From positions 1-24,170 of IMG/VR virus record IMGVR_UViG_3300031787_000818: a DNA stretch of 24,170 nucleotides. One strand, written 5' to 3'. Below the pieces are notes generated by a model, which saw only the letters and a program-made list of their open reading frames with translations, ran no database searches and was not told where the DNA came from. The position numbers and the translations under genes are program-made. Position 1 is the first letter of the stretch, and each line of letters starts with the position of its first letter. Shown here piece by piece: positions 1 through 12,710 of this stretch. Source of the DNA: a virus.

Positions 1-219
1 GCACGGCGAGCGGTAACTCGCCCTGCGGCCTACGGCGTCCGCGCCGAAATGGTCATCACCCTCCACCCCGGAGGAATCATCGGCATCCGCGAAGTCGGAC
101 GCCGCAGCAAGAGCGAGGTTTGCTTTGAAGCAGCCGAGCTATACGTCGATGGAGTCCGCCGCCGCATAGCCAAAGAGCGAGCGGAAAAACGCAAAGCGCG
201 TAAAGCGCGGAGGAAGTAA
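1..219 (+). CDS. Hypothetical phage protein, 5' end outside the window
   Basis: The reading frame is open from base 1 and stops at TAA 217-219, so only the last 72 residues are visible. The visible part has a compact segment (VITLHPGGIIGIREVGRR) followed by a very basic tail rich in Lys and Arg after about residue 58. The segment resembles short phage-encoded proteins of unknown role that contain a TRPAAYGVRAEMV-like motif. The basic tail would suit nucleic acid contact, but this is inference. The next gene starts one base after the stop, so the two are probably co-transcribed. I do not recognise a function. Confidence 0.6.
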   Translation, partial: ARRAVTRPAAYGVRAEMVITLHPGGIIGIREVGRRSKSEVCFEAAELYVDGVRRRIAKERAEKRKARKARRK

Positions 220-1740: not shown

Positions 1741-2105
1741 ACGATTGGAAAGCTGCGGAGCTTATCAACACCGCAAAAAACGACTGCATTAATATTGCGT
1801 GGACAGACGCTTACTGGTGCGATGGCTTTACGTTCCGGCGTATGCTGGATGGTCGCCTCACTCCATTTGCCGCTGTTTACTGGAACCCCGGCTCGCGGCT
1901 TTGGGATGTTTACAATGCTGCGGACGAGGAAGACGAAACGCTCGTTCGTCGGCGCTGCAATCACTTCCAAGCCATCAACGAAGTGCGGAAATTGCAGGCC
2001 GAGCTATTCGGATGGGAAGACGCCTACGGCAAGCCCGTTGTCGAGGTCACGCAGGGCTACGCTCGCCGCGAGTATTCGCACACTTGCTGGAGGTTGGCAC
2101 AATGA
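1737..2105 (+). CDS. Hypothetical protein rich in aromatic residues, 122 aa
   Basis: ATG 1737 overlaps the preceding stop (ATGA) and follows a GGGGAGG Shine-Dalgarno sequence. The product is soluble, with many Trp, Tyr and Phe residues in its first 60 residues (for example AYWCDGFTFRRML and YWNPGSRLWDVYNA), an acidic patch EEDE, then a helical segment. This composition suggests a compact fold with a hydrophobic core, but I cannot assign a family. It is part of the SD-led operon of small genes. Two other + strand frames across this region are shadows, since they lack start signals and would break the overlapping gene chain. Confidence 0.6.
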   Translation: MNDWKAAELINTAKNDCINIAWTDAYWCDGFTFRRMLDGRLTPFAAVYWNPGSRLWDVYNAADEEDETLVRRRCNHFQAINEVRKLQAELFGWEDAYGKPVVEVTQGYARREYSHTCWRLAQ

Positions 2106-3996: not shown

Positions 3997-4463
3997 CCCG
4001 CTGCGCCGACGAAGCTGACCGCTGCGCTGCCCTTGCTCAAGCCGGGGCAGAGCTTGCCATCCGTCACGCATGGAACGCGGGCGCGGTTTGCTTGAAGGCC
4101 AAGGAGATTGTGCCGCATGGCGAGTTCCAAGCATGGCTGGAGGCCAACGCTGGCGAGCGCGGCTACCGCACCCTCGCCAAGTGGATGAAGCTGGCAAAAG
4201 TGAATCTCGATGCACTTTTGGCTGAGAACCCCACGCTCAAAGGATTGCAAGATGCCTACGTTGCCGCTGGCGTCCTGCCCGAACCGGAGCCAAAACAGGA
4301 CAGCGGGGAAGGCGACAAGGAGAAGCCGCCCTTTGTCCTTAACTTCAAGACGCAATATCATCACCCGTCCGAGTGGAACCGCGATGCCGCCCGCGACTTT
4401 CTTTATGAGTTTGAGCGGTTGGCGAAACTCGCCGTGCAACTCAAGACGGAGTTTGGCCTGTGA
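3912..4463 (+). CDS. DUF3102-like protein, 183 aa
   Basis: The region at about residues 45-100 (helices around LAIRHAWNAGAVCLKAKEIV, then HGEFQAWLEANAGERGYRTL and WMKLAK) matches the layout of DUF3102-type proteins seen in phages and plasmids: a helix ending in LKAKEIVPHGEF, then a W-containing helix and a turn that could bind DNA. The function of that family is not established. The C-terminal third contains a Pro/Glu/Lys linker and a final helix rich in Leu and Lys. ATG 3912 is used although it lies 85 bases inside the previous gene, since no later start in frame keeps the domain. Its stop overlaps the GTG start of a tiny membrane protein. Confidence 0.55.
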   Translation: MQNTDLQLVSPSLDLTLCLDADACARELTRCADEADRCAALAQAGAELAIRHAWNAGAVCLKAKEIVPHGEFQAWLEANAGERGYRTLAKWMKLAKVNLDALLAENPTLKGLQDAYVAAGVLPEPEPKQDSGEGDKEKPPFVLNFKTQYHHPSEWNRDAARDFLYEFERLAKLAVQLKTEFGL

Positions 4464-4579
4464 ACGAGCAACGCCCTTCGTCCGCTATTCCTGCGCTGCT
4501 CTTTTGCTTCGCCGCTCTTGGCTTTGTCTGGTCGGTCGAGGCCACGGCTCGCGTCCTCATGCGATTGCTTGGCCTTTGA
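4460..4579 (+). CDS. Tiny single-pass membrane protein, 39 aa
   Basis: A GTG at 4460 overlaps the previous TGA (GTGA), and the frame runs to TGA 4577-4579. The product starts MNEQRPSSAIPALLF and has one clear hydrophobic helix (about residues 9-28), followed by an Arg-containing end (ARVLMRLLGL). This is the shape of a small phage membrane protein. Candidates are an accessory lysis or superinfection-exclusion protein, but nothing identifies one. Its stop codon is embedded in the TTGACAG element that precedes the gpW-like gene. The short length means this call rests on the overlap and hydrophobicity. Confidence 0.45.
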   Translation: MNEQRPSSAIPALLFCFAALGFVWSVEATARVLMRLLGL

Positions 4580-4582
4580 CAG
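4576..4582 (+). promoter_or_regulatory. TTGACAG start-proximal element, copy 1
   Basis: TTGACAG begins 19 nt before the ATG at 4595. The usual Shine-Dalgarno sequence is missing and no -10 box lies at the right distance for a sigma70 promoter. Confidence 0.5.
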
Positions 4583-4594
4583 TTTAGCAACTGC

Positions 4595-4840
4595 ATGGCG
4601 CGTTCCGACTTTTTCGGCTTACCCGTTGCGACCCTTGAGGAGCTTCGGGACGAATACGTTGCCGCGATCAAAGCCGTTGCGACTAACGGCGTGAGCTACT
4701 CCATCGGGGGCCGCTCGCTCTCCCGCGCCAATCTGACCGAGATGCGAAACACGCTTGGCGACATTCAAGCCGCCTTGACCCGTGCCTCCGGTAGTCGCCG
4801 CCGCACGCTCTACGCCGACTTCTCTGGCGTCCGCTCATGA
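4595..4840 (+). CDS. gpW-like head-tail connector, 81 aa
   Basis: The product is close in size to lambda gpW (68 aa) and has the same plan: an N-terminal helix (TLEELRDEYVAAIKAV), a short beta hairpin with glycines (VSYSIGGRSLSRANL), and a second helix (LTEMRNTLGDIQAAL). In lambda, gpW joins the filled head and completes it for tail attachment; that is family knowledge. Placement just upstream of the portal is common for this family. ATG 4595 lies 19 nt after the start of a TTGACAG element and has no Shine-Dalgarno sequence. The stop overlaps the portal start (ATGA), so the two are probably translationally coupled. Confidence 0.7.
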   Translation: MARSDFFGLPVATLEELRDEYVAAIKAVATNGVSYSIGGRSLSRANLTEMRNTLGDIQAALTRASGSRRRTLYADFSGVRS

Positions 4841-6699
4841 ATCTGATCGACCAGACGATTGCTTTGTTTAGCCCCCGCGCAGCCCTGCGCCGGGAGGTTG
4901 CCCGCCAGAAGCTAACCGCCTTCAGCCGCTTCGACGCTGCCAAGGTCACCCGCAACCGCCCGATGGCGCGGATGAATATGCCCGCCGAACAGCTTGGCGG
5001 CACAACTGAGCGCATCCGGTTGATGAATCGCGCTCGCGATCTCGACGACAATTTCTCTACCGTCCGGGCGATCCTCACGCACTTCGTCGTTCACGTTGCA
5101 GGCAGTCTTTCCTACCAAGCCCGCACGGGCGACACCGCCCTCGACCAAGACGTTGAGGCGTATCTGAACGCATGGTTCAATGACTGCGACATCACTGACA
5201 GACACTCCCTCCTTTCCCTCACCCAACTGGTTCTTCGCGCTACTTTGGTCGATGGCGATTGCGGCGTGGTTATTGCGCGGGATGGCGGCTCGCTGAAGCT
5301 ACAACCCATCACCGCCGACCGCATCGGGCGGGACATCGACCTTCAGCAAAACGACCCGCGCTATATCGGCGGCATTACGCTCGACGCGCTGGGCCGTCCG
5401 GTCAGCTACCGCATTTACGAGCGCGACCGCTCCGGGCGTTACGGCAACTTTGAGGAAGTCGCCGCCGAGAACTTCTGCCATGTCTTTGTCCCGACTCGCC
5501 TTGACGAATATCGGGGCCGCTCGGTCATGGCTCCGATCCTTGATGACGCACAGGACGTAGCCGACTTGATCGAATACGAAAAGCTCGCCGCTCGTTGGGC
5601 ATCCTCGCAGGCAGGCGTGGTCAAGACGGAATACGGCGCGGATGAGGAAATGGCGTCTGTCCTTCGCGGCGACCGCGACCAATTCGGCAACGACATCAAG
5701 CTCACCGCGCTGGAGCCGGGGCGGATTAACTACCTTTCGACGGGCGAGAGCATGGAGGTTTTCAAGAACGACAACCGCCCTGCCGCCGCCTTCGCCAACT
5801 TTGTGCAATACTTGGAGAACCGGATGTGCCGCGCCCTTGGCACTTCGGCTCGCGTGATCCTTGACCGCCCAAGCGCGGGGCCAGAGTCACGCAAAGACCT
5901 TCGCCAAGCCGAGCGCACGTTTGAGTTTTGGCGCAAGCAACTGGAAATGTCCTTCCTTAACAAAGTCGTGCGCCTTGCGCTCATGGACGGCGCAGCCAAG
6001 GGACTCTTGCCCAACGCGCCCGAAGTCGCACAGGGTCAATGGCAATGGCCGGGATCGGTCAGCATCGACGCAGGCCGCGATGCTCGCGCCGACATTGAAC
6101 TCTGGCGCATGGGTCTTGCTACCGCCGCCGATCTTTACGGCGAGGTTGGTCTGGATTGGCAGGCAAGCATCCGCCAACGCGCCAAGGAAGCGGCCTACAT
6201 TAAAGAAATGGCCGATGAAATGGACGTTAGCCCTGCCGAGATTAGCGGTGGCAAAGAGTCTATCGCTACCGATCCGAACCGCGCCCCCGTCACCGCGCCG
6301 ATACCCGCCGCACCGGAGCAGGAGCTATCGCAAACCAACTTCGCTATCCCCGCAAAATACGCGCACATCAATTTCAAGCCGACCGCCGCACTTGCCGTCG
6401 AAGCCGAGAAGGGGCTGAAGTGGCGCGAGGAGTTTAATCGCGGCGGCACGGAAGTCGGAGTCGCTCGCGCCCGCGATCTGAAGAACCGCGCCAATCTTTC
6501 TGTCAGCACCGTGCGCCGTATGCACAGCTATTTTTCTCGTCACGAAGTCGATAAGCAGGGCCAAGGCTTTAAGCCCGGAGAGGACGGCTATCCGTCTGCG
6601 GGTCGCATTGCTTGGGCCTTGTGGGGCGGCGATGCGGGTCAATCGTGGGCCGCAGCGCGAGTCGCGCAGATGGACGCTGCCGACGATGACGAGGGCTGA
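4837..6699 (+). CDS. Portal protein (lambda gpB-like) with extra C-terminal module
   Basis: Residues about 1-470 fit the lambda-type portal family: an early segment with MARMNMPAEQLGGTTERIRL, central motifs such as VDGDCGVVIARDGGSLKLQP and ITADRIGRDI, and a late segment with AGPESRKDLRQAERTFEFWR. The portal forms the ring at the unique head vertex through which DNA enters and leaves. At 620 residues it is longer than a minimal portal. After a Pro/Ala linker (about 480-505), residues about 510-620 form another module, with the signature SYFSRHEVDK and PGEDGYPSAGRIAWALWGGD. I associate that signature with several phage proteins outside portals, so this looks like a fusion. The start overlaps the gpW-like gene; the next gene follows the tmRNA-like element. 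Confidence 0.85.
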   Translation: MNLIDQTIALFSPRAALRREVARQKLTAFSRFDAAKVTRNRPMARMNMPAEQLGGTTERIRLMNRARDLDDNFSTVRAILTHFVVHVAGSLSYQARTGDTALDQDVEAYLNAWFNDCDITDRHSLLSLTQLVLRATLVDGDCGVVIARDGGSLKLQPITADRIGRDIDLQQNDPRYIGGITLDALGRPVSYRIYERDRSGRYGNFEEVAAENFCHVFVPTRLDEYRGRSVMAPILDDAQDVADLIEYEKLAARWASSQAGVVKTEYGADEEMASVLRGDRDQFGNDIKLTALEPGRINYLSTGESMEVFKNDNRPAAAFANFVQYLENRMCRALGTSARVILDRPSAGPESRKDLRQAERTFEFWRKQLEMSFLNKVVRLALMDGAAKGLLPNAPEVAQGQWQWPGSVSIDAGRDARADIELWRMGLATAADLYGEVGLDWQASIRQRAKEAAYIKEMADEMDVSPAEISGGKESIATDPNRAPVTAPIPAAPEQELSQTNFAIPAKYAHINFKPTAALAVEAEKGLKWREEFNRGGTEVGVARARDLKNRANLSVSTVRRMHSYFSRHEVDKQGQGFKPGEDGYPSAGRIAWALWGGDAGQSWAAARVAQMDAADDDEG

Positions 6700-6728: not shown

Positions 6729-6793
6729 GGGGGCGATTGCTTCGACCGTGGCTGCGGCCACTGGCACGGGGGTTCAAGCCCCCCGCCTCCACC
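6729..6793 (+). ncRNA. tmRNA-like minimal tRNA-like domain (no mRNA-like part)
   Basis: The sequence starts GGGGGCG (6729-6735) and ends GCCTCC plus ACC (6785-6793), which pair as an acceptor stem with a G-U at the third position, the alanine identity signal also used by tmRNA. A T-arm is clear: GGGGG (6768-6772), loop TTCAAGC, CCCCC (6780-6784). The T-stem and acceptor together give 11 or 12 bp depending on how one C is assigned. The 5' part (GATTGCTTCGACC) resembles the tmRNA D-like region with its TTCGAC motif. Between them is only a 14-base hairpin (GTGGC TGCG GCCAC, 6748-6761), where a real tmRNA would carry pseudoknots and a tag reading frame. The 3' end is ACCTT, not CCA. It may be a functional RNA, a processing site or a relic. 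Confidence 0.6.
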
Positions 6794-6799
6794 TTCGCT

Positions 6800-6806
6800 T
6801 TGACAG
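6800..6806 (+). promoter_or_regulatory. TTGACAG start-proximal element, copy 2
   Basis: TTGACAG begins 19 nt before ATG 6819, just downstream of the tmRNA-like element. It is followed by CGGC at the same offset as in copies 5 and 6. Confidence 0.5.
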
Positions 6807-6818
6807 TCGCGGCAAGTC

Positions 6819-7742
6819 ATGACCAAGACTGACTTCGCCGTTCTCGACGGAACCATCGACGCGCAGGCCGCAACGATTGCAGGCGTAAGCGTGATTACTA
6901 TTGGCGAGGCCAAGGGTCACGGGATGCTGATCGACGCGCAAACCCTCCTGCAAGTGAAGGAAGCCGCCGAGACTTACAGCGGCGGGCTGAAGGTCAAGAC
7001 CGACCACTACACCGGATTCAACGAGATTGTCGGCACGCTGAAGAACTTCGTCATCGACGGCGATCAGCTACGCGCCGACCTCTACTTGCTAAAGAATCAC
7101 GATGCGACTCCGCGCATCTTGGAGATGGCCGAACTGATGCCCGACACCTTCGGTCTTTCGATCAGCTTCAGCGGTCAGCATGAGGAACAAGGCGAGACTG
7201 TCTTTGCGCGTTGCTCCGAGATTTATTCCGCCGATCTGGTCGATGCGCCCGCCGCAAATCCGACCGGACTCTTTAGCGCAAAGGTTGACAGCGGAAAAAA
7301 GGCTATGGACGAAAAGCAATTTGCCGAGGCTCTCGCAGCCGCCCTCGCTCCGATCAACGACAAGCTCTCCGCTTTTGAGGCTTTCATGACCGAAGCCTCC
7401 ACGAAGTTCGCCGCTCTGGAAATGAAACCGGAGGACGAGAAGGAGATGTCCGAAGACGAAATTGTTATTGTTGAAGACGAGGACAAAGAAGACATGAGCG
7501 CGAAACTCGCCGCTGAAGTCGCTGAACTCAAAGCCCTCGTTGCCAATTTCGGCGCAAAGCCCGTGGCCGTTGCCGTTGCCACCGAAGTCAAGGCCGAGCC
7601 GAAAGCTCCGACTACTTTCAACGAAGCCCTTGAGGTCGTTAAGGCCGAAGGCTTGAGCGGCAGCGCGGCCACAAAAGCCGTCATCGCTCGCTATCCCGAA
7701 CTTTTCATCGCTGCACGCAACAGCGGAATCCGCACTCTCTAA
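6819..7742 (+). CDS. Prohead protease fused to scaffold, 307 aa
   Basis: Residues about 1-155 look like a phage prohead serine protease: a possible catalytic His at 63 (KTDHYTGFNEIVG), a Ser-rich strand at 111-119 (FGLSISFSG) that would hold the nucleophile, and the closing motif SADLVDAPAANPTGLFS. This resembles the protease-scaffold fusions of P2 gpO or Mu gpI type, more than HK97 gp4; which clan is uncertain. Residues about 160-307 are helical and acidic (around EDEKEMSEDEIVIVEDED) with Ala-rich repeats, typical of a scaffold removed on maturation. The genes for decoration and capsid follow directly. ATG 6819 is preceded by TTGACAG at 19 nt. An internal ATG at 7305 may also be used. Confidence 0.75.
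   Translation: MTKTDFAVLDGTIDAQAATIAGVSVITIGEAKGHGMLIDAQTLLQVKEAAETYSGGLKVKTDHYTGFNEIVGTLKNFVIDGDQLRADLYLLKNHDATPRILEMAELMPDTFGLSISFSGQHEEQGETVFARCSEIYSADLVDAPAANPTGLFSAKVDSGKKAMDEKQFAEALAAALAPINDKLSAFEAFMTEASTKFAALEMKPEDEKEMSEDEIVIVEDEDKEDMSAKLAAEVAELKALVANFGAKPVAVAVATEVKAEPKAPTTFNEALEVVKAEGLSGSAATKAVIARYPELFIAARNSGIRTL
7285..7291 (+). promoter_or_regulatory. TTGACAG start-proximal element inside the protease gene, copy 3
   Basis: TTGACAG lies within the protease reading frame (codons for Val-Asp-Ser) and begins 20 nt before an in-frame ATG at 7305, also followed by CGG and an A/G-rich run. Confidence 0.45.
7305..7742 (+). CDS. Nested scaffold protein (candidate internal start), 145 aa
   Basis: An in-frame ATG at codon 163 of the protease gene would make a separate scaffold protein of 145 residues, beginning MDEKQFAEALAAALAPINDK. 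It starts right where the protease domain ends (after PTGLFSAK), and a TTGACAG element precedes it by 20 nt; a purine-rich GGAAAAAAGG lies between them. Nested scaffold genes in the same frame are known, for example lambda nu3 inside C. The product would be helical with an acidic centre. This is inferred from position and motif; the same residues are also made as the C-terminal part of the full protein. Confidence 0.45.
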   Translation: MDEKQFAEALAAALAPINDKLSAFEAFMTEASTKFAALEMKPEDEKEMSEDEIVIVEDEDKEDMSAKLAAEVAELKALVANFGAKPVAVAVATEVKAEPKAPTTFNEALEVVKAEGLSGSAATKAVIARYPELFIAARNSGIRTL

Positions 7743-9085: not shown

Positions 9086-9108
9086 AAAACTGTTCTGTGT
9101 GTTCACTG

Positions 9109-9140
9109 AAACCCCGCCGGGAGGCGGGGTTTCTGCTTTT
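9109..9140 (+). terminator. Intrinsic terminator after the capsid gene
   Basis: AAACCCCGCC (9109-9118) pairs perfectly over 10 bp with GGCGGGGTTT (9123-9132) around a GGGA loop, followed by CTGCTTTTT. It should end much of the head-gene transcript before the glycosyltransferase cassette. Confidence 0.85.
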
Positions 9141-9202: not shown

Positions 9203-9209
9203 TTGACAG
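9203..9209 (+). promoter_or_regulatory. TTGACAG start-proximal element, copy 4
   Basis: TTGACAG begins 21 nt before ATG 9224. It overlaps the right arm of the CAAAAG/CTTTTG inverted repeat. Confidence 0.45.
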
Positions 9210-9223
9210 ACAGGGCAGGGCAG

Positions 9224-10909
9224 ATGAAAATTGCCGTCTGCTTGATTGCAGGCAACGAGGAAGCCGTCATTGACCGTGCCCTCGACTCTGCCTTCTCCGT
9301 CACCGACACCGTTGTTGTAGTCCGCGCCATCGGGGGCCAGACACCCGATCCTACGCTCGCAATCGCCCGTGAGCGCGGGTGCATTGTCGGGGAATACCAC
9401 AACAGCCCTGCGACCGCATCGTGGCCTTTCGTGGATGATTTTGCCGCCGCTCGCAACGAAGCCTTCCGCCTTGGCGCGGATACAGGGGCGGATTGGCTGA
9501 TGTGGATGGATTGTGACGATACGCTGCCAGAAGGCATGGGCGAGACGATCCGCAAAGCCTGCGCCGAGACACAAGAGGATTGGATTCTGGCCGAGTATGT
9601 CCTTCCCAATCACGGGAAGTCTGTGTGGCGCGAGCGACTATTCCGCACCGGAACGGCGGCATGGTTTCACGGATGCCATGAAAAGTGTGTTCCAGTATCT
9701 GGCGACAAGGACAAGGAATCGCTGAAGGTGCGGGTGCGCCGAGACATTAAAGTGGTGCATGAGCCGATTGCCGACAAAAGCGGATCGCAGGAGCGAAACA
9801 TCAACATCCTGCGCTGGCGTTACCAAGAAGCGCAGCACTTGGCGTTCTACCTTCATTACGAGTATTACCTTTTAGGCCAGCGCGAGGAAGCCGTGCGCTA
9901 CGGGCTAGAAGCCTTGCGGATGCAAGACCTCGACGGAGTCTATCGCTACGAGGTCTTTCTTAACCTCGCCTTGCTCGCCGGGGAGAACGCGCACGGGCAA
10001 GACCTTTGCCAGCGAGCGATCAAGCTGAACCCGCAACGCCGCGAGGCCCACAACATCCTCGCCCTCCTGCAAATGGACGCAGGGCAGACCGGGGACGCGC
10101 TGCAGACCGCCGAGCATACGCTGACCATCCCGCTGCCTAAGATACCGGAATGGACGCACCGACCCGATTGCTACGGATGGAAGGGCTACGCAACCCTCGC
10201 ATGGGCGCATCGCCTTGAGCGCAACGAAACCAAGGCGCGCGAGGTAGAGTCCAAGATGCTTGAGGACGGCGGCAAGCCCCGCATTTCGCTCCTACACGCC
10301 ACCCGTGGCCGCTGGGCGCAAGCAATACAGGCAATGAACCTGTGGATGTCTCGCGCAGAGAACCCGCTGGCCGTTGAACACATCTTCGCCATCGACGCCG
10401 ATGACGAGGAATCCCGCGACAAGCTGCGGCGATTCCGCAACGTAATCTCCGCAGGGGATTGCTCCGTTGCCGCGTGGAACTCGGCAGCGGCATGGGCTAC
10501 TGGCGATGTGTTAGTGCAGCTTGCCGACGACTTTGAACCGCCCGCAGGCTGGGATCGCCTCATTGTCGAGGCGTTAGGAGAAAACATCTTTGCGCCCCAA
10601 GTCCTGCGCGTCTCGGACGGCAACCGCACGGATGGGCTAATCACGTGCGCCATCGTCACTCGCCGCTGGTATGAGCAGAACGGATTGTTCCACGGGGAAT
10701 ATCGCAACGTGTATTCCGACAACGATCTGACCGTGACCGCGACCAAGGCAGGGGCAATCATCGACGCCCCCCAAATCGTCATTCGCCATCATCATCCGTT
10801 CTTCAACGACAAAGTGAAGATGGACGCGACCTACGAGCGCGGCAACGACCCGCAGGAATACACCCGCGCCAAAGCAATCTTTCAAACCAGACATCCCGAA
10901 CACCCATGA
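9224..10909 (+). CDS. Double glycosyltransferase (GT2-like) with TPR-like middle, 561 aa
   Basis: Residues about 1-200 form a family 2 glycosyltransferase domain: the N-terminal strand (KIAVCLIAGNEEAVIDRALD) and an acidic metal-binding motif (MDCDD, residues 95-99), which would bind the nucleotide sugar. Residues about 200-310 are helical with TPR-like pairs (for example LLGQREEAVRYGLEALRMQ). From about 350 a second GT-A-like domain follows (ISLLHATRGRW, later AAAWATGDVLVQLADDFEP), where ADD may replace the DxD. The frame is open to TTG 9140 at the edge of the terminator, but ATG 9224, preceded by TTGACAG, is the better start. The stop overlaps a second glycosyltransferase gene. The acceptor is unknown: virion protein, host surface sugar or phage DNA are possible. 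Confidence 0.75.
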   Translation: MKIAVCLIAGNEEAVIDRALDSAFSVTDTVVVVRAIGGQTPDPTLAIARERGCIVGEYHNSPATASWPFVDDFAAARNEAFRLGADTGADWLMWMDCDDTLPEGMGETIRKACAETQEDWILAEYVLPNHGKSVWRERLFRTGTAAWFHGCHEKCVPVSGDKDKESLKVRVRRDIKVVHEPIADKSGSQERNINILRWRYQEAQHLAFYLHYEYYLLGQREEAVRYGLEALRMQDLDGVYRYEVFLNLALLAGENAHGQDLCQRAIKLNPQRREAHNILALLQMDAGQTGDALQTAEHTLTIPLPKIPEWTHRPDCYGWKGYATLAWAHRLERNETKAREVESKMLEDGGKPRISLLHATRGRWAQAIQAMNLWMSRAENPLAVEHIFAIDADDEESRDKLRRFRNVISAGDCSVAAWNSAAAWATGDVLVQLADDFEPPAGWDRLIVEALGENIFAPQVLRVSDGNRTDGLITCAIVTRRWYEQNGLFHGEYRNVYSDNDLTVTATKAGAIIDAPQIVIRHHHPFFNDKVKMDATYERGNDPQEYTRAKAIFQTRHPEHP

Positions 10910-11511
10910 AACGCGCCAAGCTATCTATCCTCATCCCGACCATTACCCGCCGCTCTGACGTAGCCGAGCGGCTATTCCGCAGCCTTGAGAACCGCATAGG
11001 CGACCGCCCCGTGGAGTTGCTTATGCTGCGCGACAATCGCTGGCAGAACATCGGGGAGAAGCGCAACCAGCTTCTACGTGCGGCCACGGGCGACTATATC
11101 GCCTTCCTTGATGATGATGACCTTCTGCTGGAGGGCTACTTTGAGCTTGTTCTGCAAAACGTGGATCACGGCGCGGACGTTATTACCTACGATCAGTGGG
11201 CTGTGGTTGATGATATGCAGGGGCGGATCAACTGCCGCCTTGGCAATGAGATGGAACCCTTCCGCCCCGGTAGCGTGACCAAGCGCCCGCCGTGGTTCTG
11301 GTGCGCTTGGAAGCGCGACCTTGCCGCCGCTTATCGCGTCCCCGAATCTTTCGTCGATGCCAACGGCGTGACGCATCACGAAGACGTTTTGTGGCTGCGC
11401 CATCTATGGGTCGAGGCCAAGACCGAGGCGCACATCCCGCAAGTCCTGCACCGCTACCAGTTCGACAGCGCTAAAACGACCCTTCAGAAACCCTTGACAG
11501 AGGCGGCATAG
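10906..11511 (+). CDS. Glycosyltransferase family 2 protein, 201 aa
   Basis: The start at ATG 10906 overlaps the previous TGA (ATGA), so it is probably translated together with the larger glycosyltransferase. The N-terminus (LSILIPTITRRSDVAERLFR) is the typical GT2 nucleotide-binding strand, and GEKRNQLLRAATGDYIAFLD followed by DDD carries the acidic metal-binding run, with His-Glu-Asp later (HHEDVLWLRHLW). It is shorter than many GT2 enzymes but holds the core motifs. Together the two genes form a cassette with its own leader between capsid and connector genes. The TTGACAG element of the next gene lies inside its last codons. Confidence 0.8.
   Translation: MKRAKLSILIPTITRRSDVAERLFRSLENRIGDRPVELLMLRDNRWQNIGEKRNQLLRAATGDYIAFLDDDDLLLEGYFELVLQNVDHGADVITYDQWAVVDDMQGRINCRLGNEMEPFRPGSVTKRPPWFWCAWKRDLAAAYRVPESFVDANGVTHHEDVLWLRHLWVEAKTEAHIPQVLHRYQFDSAKTTLQKPLTEAA
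11494..11500 (+). promoter_or_regulatory. TTGACAG start-proximal element, copy 5
   Basis: TTGACAG begins 19 nt before ATG 11513, within the last codons of the upstream glycosyltransferase gene. CGGC follows at the same offset as in copies 2 and 6. Confidence 0.5.
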
Positions 11512-11512
11512 C

Positions 11513-11836
11513 ATGGCGCTGGACACTACACGGCTCGCCGCCGAGTTTGATTCTATCATCGCGGACTTGCCCGCGACCGTGACCTTTGGCGAGGCGACCT
11601 TCAGTGCCGCCGTGACGATGGCGACGACGGGTGCGGACATCGAAGAAGGTGGTTTTATGCCCTCGCGCGATGTCGGCCTGCACGTAAAGGCCACCGCCAC
11701 GACCCGCTCGGTCAAGGTCGGCAGCAAGCTCTCTGTCTTGTCGGGCGGGGTTACGACGATTTATCGGGTCATCAGCATTGAACGCTCGCAGGACGGGCAA
11801 GAACTCATCTTCTCATGCCAGAGTCACCGCCGCTAA
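11513..11836 (+). CDS. Probable head-closure or connector protein, 107 aa
   Basis: The product is a small beta-rich protein with the segments TVTFGEATFSAAVTM and VKVGSKLSVLSGGVTTIYRV, ending in an ISIERSQDGQELIFSCQS strand. Small beta-barrel stoppers or connectors of about this size lie between the capsid gene and the tail tube gene in siphophages, so position and fold suggest a head-closure role; I do not see a decisive motif. The start is fixed by the stop of the previous gene one base upstream and by a TTGACAG element 19 nt before. The last 22 bases overlap the next gene. Confidence 0.5.
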   Translation: MALDTTRLAAEFDSIIADLPATVTFGEATFSAAVTMATTGADIEEGGFMPSRDVGLHVKATATTRSVKVGSKLSVLSGGVTTIYRVISIERSQDGQELIFSCQSHRR

Positions 11837-12319: not shown

Positions 12320-12326
12320 TTGACAG
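12320..12326 (+). promoter_or_regulatory. TTGACAG start-proximal element, copy 6
   Basis: TTGACAG begins 19 nt before ATG 12339 and one base after the previous stop codon. CGGC follows at the shared offset. Confidence 0.5.
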
Positions 12327-12338
12327 AAGCGGCTTGGC

Positions 12339-12710
12339 ATGGCCGCAACAGTCATTTCTTCCTCTGCCGCAGCGTCGGTCGTTTTTGGTTGCACCGCAGA
12401 GACGGGCATCATCATCAACAATTTCAGTTACACGACTCAGCGCGAAAAAGCCGAGGTCATGGACGAAGACGGTGACGTAATCGCAGTGTCTTACTATAAG
12501 CCCACTGCGACTATCTCGCTTGATGGCGTCATCAATGGCACGACCGGAGTTGCCGCCGCCGCTCCCGGCGTAGCCCTCTCGCTTAACAGCACGGTCAGCG
12601 GCAACGGCATTACGGGCGGCTCGGTCATCGTGGACAGCACGACCCGCACCCAAACAAGCGAAGGTTTCACCACGTTTGCCGTCGAAGGGACGAAATACCC
12701 GCTGCTCTAA
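12339..12710 (+). CDS. Probable major tail tube protein, 123 aa
   Basis: A beta-rich protein with little charge: strands around IIINNFSYTTQREKAEVMD, DVIAVSYYKPTATISLDGVI and FTTFAVEGTKYPLL. The pattern of an N-terminal strand, a loop with an acidic run (EDGDV), and a sandwich that ends in a short C-terminal arm fits tail tube proteins, which stack as hexameric rings. It lies between the probable terminator and the assembly chaperone, which is where the tube gene is found in siphophages. At 123 residues it is small for the family. ATG 12339 is preceded by TTGACAG at 19 nt, in line with the need for many copies. Confidence 0.55.
   Translation: MAATVISSSAAASVVFGCTAETGIIINNFSYTTQREKAEVMDEDGDVIAVSYYKPTATISLDGVINGTTGVAAAAPGVALSLNSTVSGNGITGGSVIVDSTTRTQTSEGFTTFAVEGTKYPLL

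Follow-up and report, generated by a model that had tools for sequence, protein, structure and literature searches.

Does the 65-nt stretch that follows the portal gene in this phage encode an RNA derived from tmRNA, and if so, what could a phage gain from it? For the window analysed here, a 24,170-base virus record from IMG/VR, an initial annotation had proposed that both ends of a tmRNA are present, that is, a tRNA-like domain (TLD) without an mRNA-like domain. Below we refer to the element as a mini-tmRNA, and its parts and neighbours are listed in Table 1.

Identity and fold of the element

The Rfam tmRNA model RF00023 matches positions 6729-6794 from end to end (model 1 to 374, E 5e-11), with a score of 35.5 bits that lies below the Rfam gathering score of 47. 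In this alignment 13 nt stand for 318, and the mRNA-like domain with its tag frame and stop is absent, in agreement with the initial annotation. Of the two covariance model searches that it had suggested, only the tmRNA search succeeded, as the tRNA model RF00005 gave no match to the element at E<=10. ARAGORN made no tRNA or tmRNA call at the element either, and with no cloverleaf bearing an anticodon arm, a tRNA identity was rejected. When we searched 301 kb with R1, a covariance model built from 23 elements of the wider family described below and none of the window's clade, the window element was found at 41.4 bits (E 5.5e-5).

The minimum free energy fold is the proposed structure (-35.2 kcal/mol, z -2.0). 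It has a 7-bp acceptor stem with G3-U70, the alanine signal noted at the outset, and a TTCGAC-bearing D-like loop without a D stem, in which the window has GC where tmRNA usually has GG ahead of TTCGAC. The four pseudoknots (PK1-PK4) and the tag frame are replaced by a single H2 hairpin, which is not 14 nt long as first described, but a 19-nt hairpin of 7 bp with U6762 bulged and the loop UGCG (6753-6756), a UNCG tetraloop. Reading the T loop as the 7-nt TTCAAGC, the length of the tmRNA loop TTCRANY, costs one acceptor pair, whereas the 6-nt loop TTCAAG keeps all 12 acceptor and T-stem pairs. The 3' end also needs correcting: the DNA encodes ACC followed by T, leaving CCA incomplete, so that A76 would need to be added.

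Table 1. Positions of the mini-tmRNA, its parts and neighbouring genes in the window, and of mini-tmRNAs in Verrucomicrobiota metagenome-assembled genomes (MAGs)
Sequence	Feature	Position	Strand	Basis
Window	Mini-tmRNA (tRNA-like domain of tmRNA, without mRNA-like domain), 65 nt	6729-6793	+	Rfam tmRNA match, model R1, clade covariation
Window	Acceptor stem 5' strand GGGGGCG, G3 = 6731	6729-6735	+	MFE fold, G3-U70 conservation
Window	D-like loop ATTGCTTCGA, 10 nt; tmRNA hallmark TTCGAC at 6741-6746	6736-6745	+	Sequence, alignments
Window	H2 hairpin, 19 nt, 7 bp: 6746-6752 with 6757-6764	6746-6764	+	Compensatory double changes, 13 relatives
Window	T arm GGGGG / TTCAAG / CCCCC	6768-6783	+	MFE fold, alignments
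Window	Acceptor stem 3' strand CGCCTCC, U70 = 6788	6784-6790	+	MFE fold, conservation
Window	Discriminator A73 with C74 C75	6791-6793	+	Sequence
Window	Upstream gene, lambda-family portal protein	4837-6699	+	Pfam PF05136 E 1.8e-46; PHROG 21
Window	Downstream gene at the head maturation protease position, 307 aa	6819-7742	+	ORF
Window	Gene-start motif TTGACAG-N12-ATG of downstream gene	6800-6821	+	Motif common to other genes of this phage
L312	Mini-tmRNA	6453-6532	-	
L313	Mini-tmRNA	1984-2063		
L316	Mini-tmRNA	105-184		
L325	Mini-tmRNA	4393-4472		
L325	Mini-tmRNA	5098-5177		
L325	Mini-tmRNA	9765-9844		
L327	Mini-tmRNA	5958-6029		
L328	Mini-tmRNA	5793-5872		

Of the two neighbours originally named, portal and protease, the portal is borne out by its family match, whereas the downstream ORF occupies the protease position but has no family match in Pfam or PHROG. 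Verrucomicrobiota encode relatives of the portal protein, about 30% identical to it, which do not settle the host of the phage. No promoter-like site was found near the element, and one weak terminator-like site lies within the portal gene. The motif TTGACAG-N12-14-ATG heads several late genes of the window (4576-4597, 9203-9226, 11494-11515 and 12320-12341, besides the copy in Table 1); with a further match at 7285, the motif occurs six times compared with 0.25 expected. Just 3' of the major head gene is a strong 13-pair hairpin (9106-9139, minus strand) with a weak match to a Brucella sRNA, perhaps a terminator.

Conservation in the clade and in other phages

Related loci were collected with the first 18 letters of the element, which matched 30 IMG/VR stretches, and with a looser pattern that added two further members. 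Within the phage clade of the window, 32 other IMG/VR loci were found to have the element, far more than chance would give; in one of them it is cut by a contig end. Counting the window, 32 records contain it whole, and these represent 13 different versions. Exactly one copy was found in 14 of the 15 records searched; the fifteenth (L032) has a D loop 1 nt shorter and was missed by the search pattern. The element lies between the portal gene and the next head gene, with the same neighbours in most clade loci, and the same downstream gene begins 20-28 nt after it in 27 of 32, the other five having an inserted gene or spacer. Inserted stretches in two relatives, L024 and L016, are flanked by copies of TTTTGACAG.

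Across these versions, base pairing holds in 98.4% of the pair cells, and G3-U70 is always present. Both partners change together at three H2 pairs (18 cells versus 5.1 after shuffling), a signal that is lost when the partner is slid. Copies of the element match that of the window at 85-100% identity, whereas the beginning of the following gene matches at 62-88% in every relative except one. The comparison with related phages that had been called for thus bears out both the constant position and the covariation of the stems, and the conserved stems and compensatory changes agree with the original view that the element is intact and not decayed. It is almost certainly a conserved, TLD-only tmRNA encoded by the phage. 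The elbow of this clade differs from that of the wider family, with GG changed to GC in the D loop and a 6-nt T loop that is mostly of the TGAAA type: the variants are TTCAAG/A/T and TGAAAG/A, and TGAAA replaces TTCAA in 23 of 32 copies.

Beyond the clade, we searched IMG/VR with a loose pattern (TTCGAC, a short gap, a T arm and CTCCACC), in which U70 was fixed and the 5' acceptor strand was not demanded; the spacing from TTCRA to CTCCACC is 10 nt in canonical tmRNA and 9 in the window. At least 120 stretches matched, mostly complete elements, and the matches listed include about 80 further distinct complete mini-tmRNAs, 61-84 nt long, from unrelated phages. A perfect 7-pair acceptor is found in 94 of the 95 distinct viral matches listed (window clade included), and in 75 of the 95 viral elements among the matches listed the next base is A, so that CCA is encoded. 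When 78 diverse elements were aligned, pairing was preserved in 98% of cells and the covariation score was 0.712 (0.146 when shuffled, at most 0.101 when slid); this alignment was structure-fitted, and a plain MAFFT alignment of 23 elements gives 0.759 versus 0.163. Many pair types occur at acceptor pairs 5 and 6, in H2 and in the T stem, while TTCGAC is invariant in alignments for which the wider search had demanded it. The Rfam tmRNA gathering score was exceeded by 14 of 15 other phage loci tested, all with the mRNA part wholly absent.

Other family members adjoin terminase genes or small genes of unknown function, and those of a second lineage (L034-L037) lie just ahead of a gene start. One of these phage contigs, L035, has two different mini-tmRNAs (1563-1638 and 5109-5183), each shortly 5' of a gene start. 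In many of the larger members (e.g. L049, L116 and L136), two H2 stems enclose a purine-rich internal loop, TAARRCC ... GGAR; it is absent from the window's clade and may be a binding site, or what is left of the internal loop in H2 of tmRNA. ARAGORN is silent on some mini-tmRNAs and on others invents a full tmRNA with a tag (L044 and L085) or a tRNA-Glu (L100), and errors of this kind may be frequent in phage annotations. Several candidates were discarded, including the cr10_1 and RpAliso regions, which are not mini-tmRNAs, and L057, a chance match. When individual elements were compared with named phages by BLAST, the only matches were to att sites and to the T arms of tRNAs.

The initial annotation knew of no phage example, which was mistaken: mycobacteriophage DS6A carries a TLD-only tmRNA (Mao 2009; PMC4131195; PMC11915505). 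In the searched literature it is the only phage case, and we liken it to the window by its published description rather than by sequence. In the window, too, a short hairpin joins both tmRNA ends among phage genes, but here the element lies in a head operon, has an altered elbow, belongs to a phage with relatives of about 39 kb and has many counterparts in unrelated phages. Compared with bacterial tmRNA (RF00023), it shares the G3-U70 acceptor, the TTCGAC D-like loop, the T arm and the base of H2, and lacks pseudoknots, resume codon and tag (65 versus about 350 nt). CDS-less mitochondrial and plastid tmRNAs (jakobids, oomycetes and Mallomonadaceae; PMC11915505) likewise have both tmRNA ends and no mRNA-like domain, but are organelle genes evolving by reduction, whereas the mini-tmRNA is a viral gene that keeps G3-U70 and often CCA. 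One-piece and two-piece phage tmRNAs (e.g. in Melnitz) are also phage-encoded but keep the tag-coding part that mini-tmRNAs lack, and could perform full trans-translation (PMC9004378). The TLD-only kind is therefore already known from one phage. Judged by the searched literature, novelty lies in this particular element, in how large and varied the family is, in the constancy of G3-U70, in copies situated within tRNA arrays and in the TerY-P association described below.

Function and rival explanations

The most telling feature for function is G3-U70, which is present in all 78 of the wider-family elements. Since the original search had fixed U70, we ran a similar, slightly stricter IMG/VR search in which this position had to be A, C or G; it returned 13 stretches, none of them a mini-tmRNA, and their best model score, 31 bits, is what ordinary tRNAs reach. 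Alanyl-tRNA synthetase (AlaRS) recognises G3-U70 together with A73 (PMC3968760), and neither folding nor cutting by RNase P and RNase Z has any need of this pair. These results therefore point to selection for alanine charging, beyond folding alone. A same-strand phage tRNA gene lies 1-6 nt away for 7 of 63 elements (0.15 expected within 10 nt), and a tRNA gene lies within 200 nt for 13 of 63 (1.6 expected), suggesting that some mini-tmRNAs are made within tRNA precursors. In 50 carrier phage records, many of them fragments, we detected no SmpB gene, so host SmpB would be used.

Among the roles proposed at the outset, a charged decoy acting against host trans-translation is the best supported, and we consider it reasonably probable as the explanation of the element. 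Host tRNA-processing enzymes would cut the head-operon transcript at both ends of the element to give a 65-nt RNA, whose 3' end would be completed to CCA and which host AlaRS would, judging by the invariance of G3-U70, charge with alanine. The Ala-mini-tmRNA could then bind host SmpB and EF-Tu like a genuine tRNA-like domain, and either enter ribosomes stalled on broken messages or titrate SmpB. Without a resume codon or tag, trans-translation cannot be completed, and tagging and rescue by host tmRNA would be blocked late in infection, during virion protein synthesis. Published work on the isolated domain is consistent with these steps: TLD and SmpB together mimic a whole tRNA (PMC3968760, PMC3985003), alanyl-TLD-SmpB-EF-Tu binds the stalled ribosome (PMC3968760), and the TLD crystallised with SmpB, its H2 closed by a UUCG loop (PMC3985003), is almost the same RNA as the window element. 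According to PMC4131195, which cites Mao 2009, a DS6A-like TLD-only molecule strongly inhibits tmRNA in Escherichia coli, perhaps by titrating SmpB. The same paper describes this inhibition as independent of charging, and inhibition alone thus does not explain the invariant G3-U70. Other points also speak against a decoy: CCA is incomplete in the window; the OM43 phages MEP401 and MEP402, isolated relatives of the carrier L047, still grow without the element; and the elbow of the window's clade is altered where SmpB binds, which makes decoy action less sure for the window copy than for the rest of the family.

The processing mark that had also been suggested is a weaker rival, and we think it rather unlikely. 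Here the fold would act in cis as a cleavage site for RNase P and RNase Z, which would split the head message between the portal and the next gene, giving its two halves separate stability or translation and releasing the RNA as waste. Any tRNA-like fold would be cut, the element lies within a co-directional head operon throughout the clade, and the second-lineage copies also lie just 5' of a gene start; however, a mark of this kind leaves the invariant G3-U70 and the tmRNA-specific TTCGAC region unexplained, and other members are found in tRNA arrays and outside head operons. The alanine signal would suit a productive use of the charged RNA, in which it takes the nascent chain with SmpB and frees stalled ribosomes for the phage without tagging. 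Such tagless rescue has been proposed for mitochondrial tmRNAs without the mRNA-like part, and CDS-less organellar tmRNAs have the same anatomy (PMC11915505), but chain release without a stop codon has no known route, and the TLD-only molecule tested in E. coli inhibits tmRNA (PMC4131195); we give this reading a small chance, slightly below that of the processing mark.

A role confined to the downstream gene, as a structured 5' leader controlling its translation, would fit a very stable fold that ends about 25 nt 5' of a start codon with no clear Shine-Dalgarno sequence. The same RNA is found in numerous unrelated settings, some of them next to tRNA genes, however, and in three clade members another gene comes after it, so we judge a leader to be very improbable. 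tmRNA genes are common phage integration sites, and the attachment-site relic proposed earlier, captured from a host tmRNA gene, would be in keeping with this. A tyrosine integrase is encoded in 3 of 15 clade records (L002, L027 and L024; G434, G881 and G437), two of them below the Pfam cut-off, and the clade may thus be partly temperate. On the other hand, integrases are either absent or 18-24 kb away, not next to the element as expected of an attachment-site core; such a core contains a single end of the gene, while here both ends are present and pair; and the compensatory changes mark selection on the RNA. An attachment-site relic is accordingly the least credible of these readings, with hardly any probability left to it.

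Mini-tmRNAs in cellular genomes

Most matches in cellular genomes (genome_contigs) were ordinary tmRNA 3' ends with a chance TTCGAC upstream, and failed acceptor pairing. Apart from the genomes used as centres, no strong match was found in 193 cyanobacterial or 245 actinobacterial genomes, and a match in an acidimicrobial MAG shares its contig with terminase and portal genes, indicating a phage. In Verrucomicrobiota, by comparison, 5 of 289 genomes match, three of them strongly, and one class has ten copies across 6 of 198 genomes. Six of the seven Verrucomicrobiota loci examined are in TerY-P-like clusters, one only partly preserved on its contig. The mini-tmRNAs of L312, L313, L316, L325, L327 and L328 (Table 1) are within such clusters, which contain a VWA protein fused to a Zc3h12a-like NYN ribonuclease, a kinase, a second VWA protein, a PP2C and a Gly-zipper/zinc-ribbon protein. 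We found no paper on mini-tmRNAs in TerY-P-like clusters, and a link to defence is possible.

In the searched literature TLD-only phage tmRNAs were formerly known from one isolate; they now turn out to be common and diverse in environmental phages, where ARAGORN misses or misnames them, and are natural counterparts of the engineered TLD behind the SmpB structures. Probably, a large and scarcely noticed family of phage RNAs jams the host ribosome-rescue system. If trans-translation is indeed blocked, ribosome rescue would be a front of phage-host conflict on which phages fight with RNA and not with protein. More tentatively, and with the balance still against it, phage mini-tmRNAs may be widespread anti-trans-translation RNAs, serving as alanine-chargeable dead-end substrates, with ribosome rescue as the object of an arms race in which the Verrucomicrobiota copies in TerY-P-like clusters take part or act as sensors.

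A cyanobacterial contig from Pseudanabaenaceae (L315; the same element as L165) has a mini-tmRNA at 6384-6466 between genes for a TPR and a VWA protein; the contig also carries a nitrate-transporter-like gene, and no phage hallmark was seen on it. Among the Verrucomicrobiota, L312 also has a Cmr1-like gene, and one genome (G364) contains five mini-tmRNA copies.
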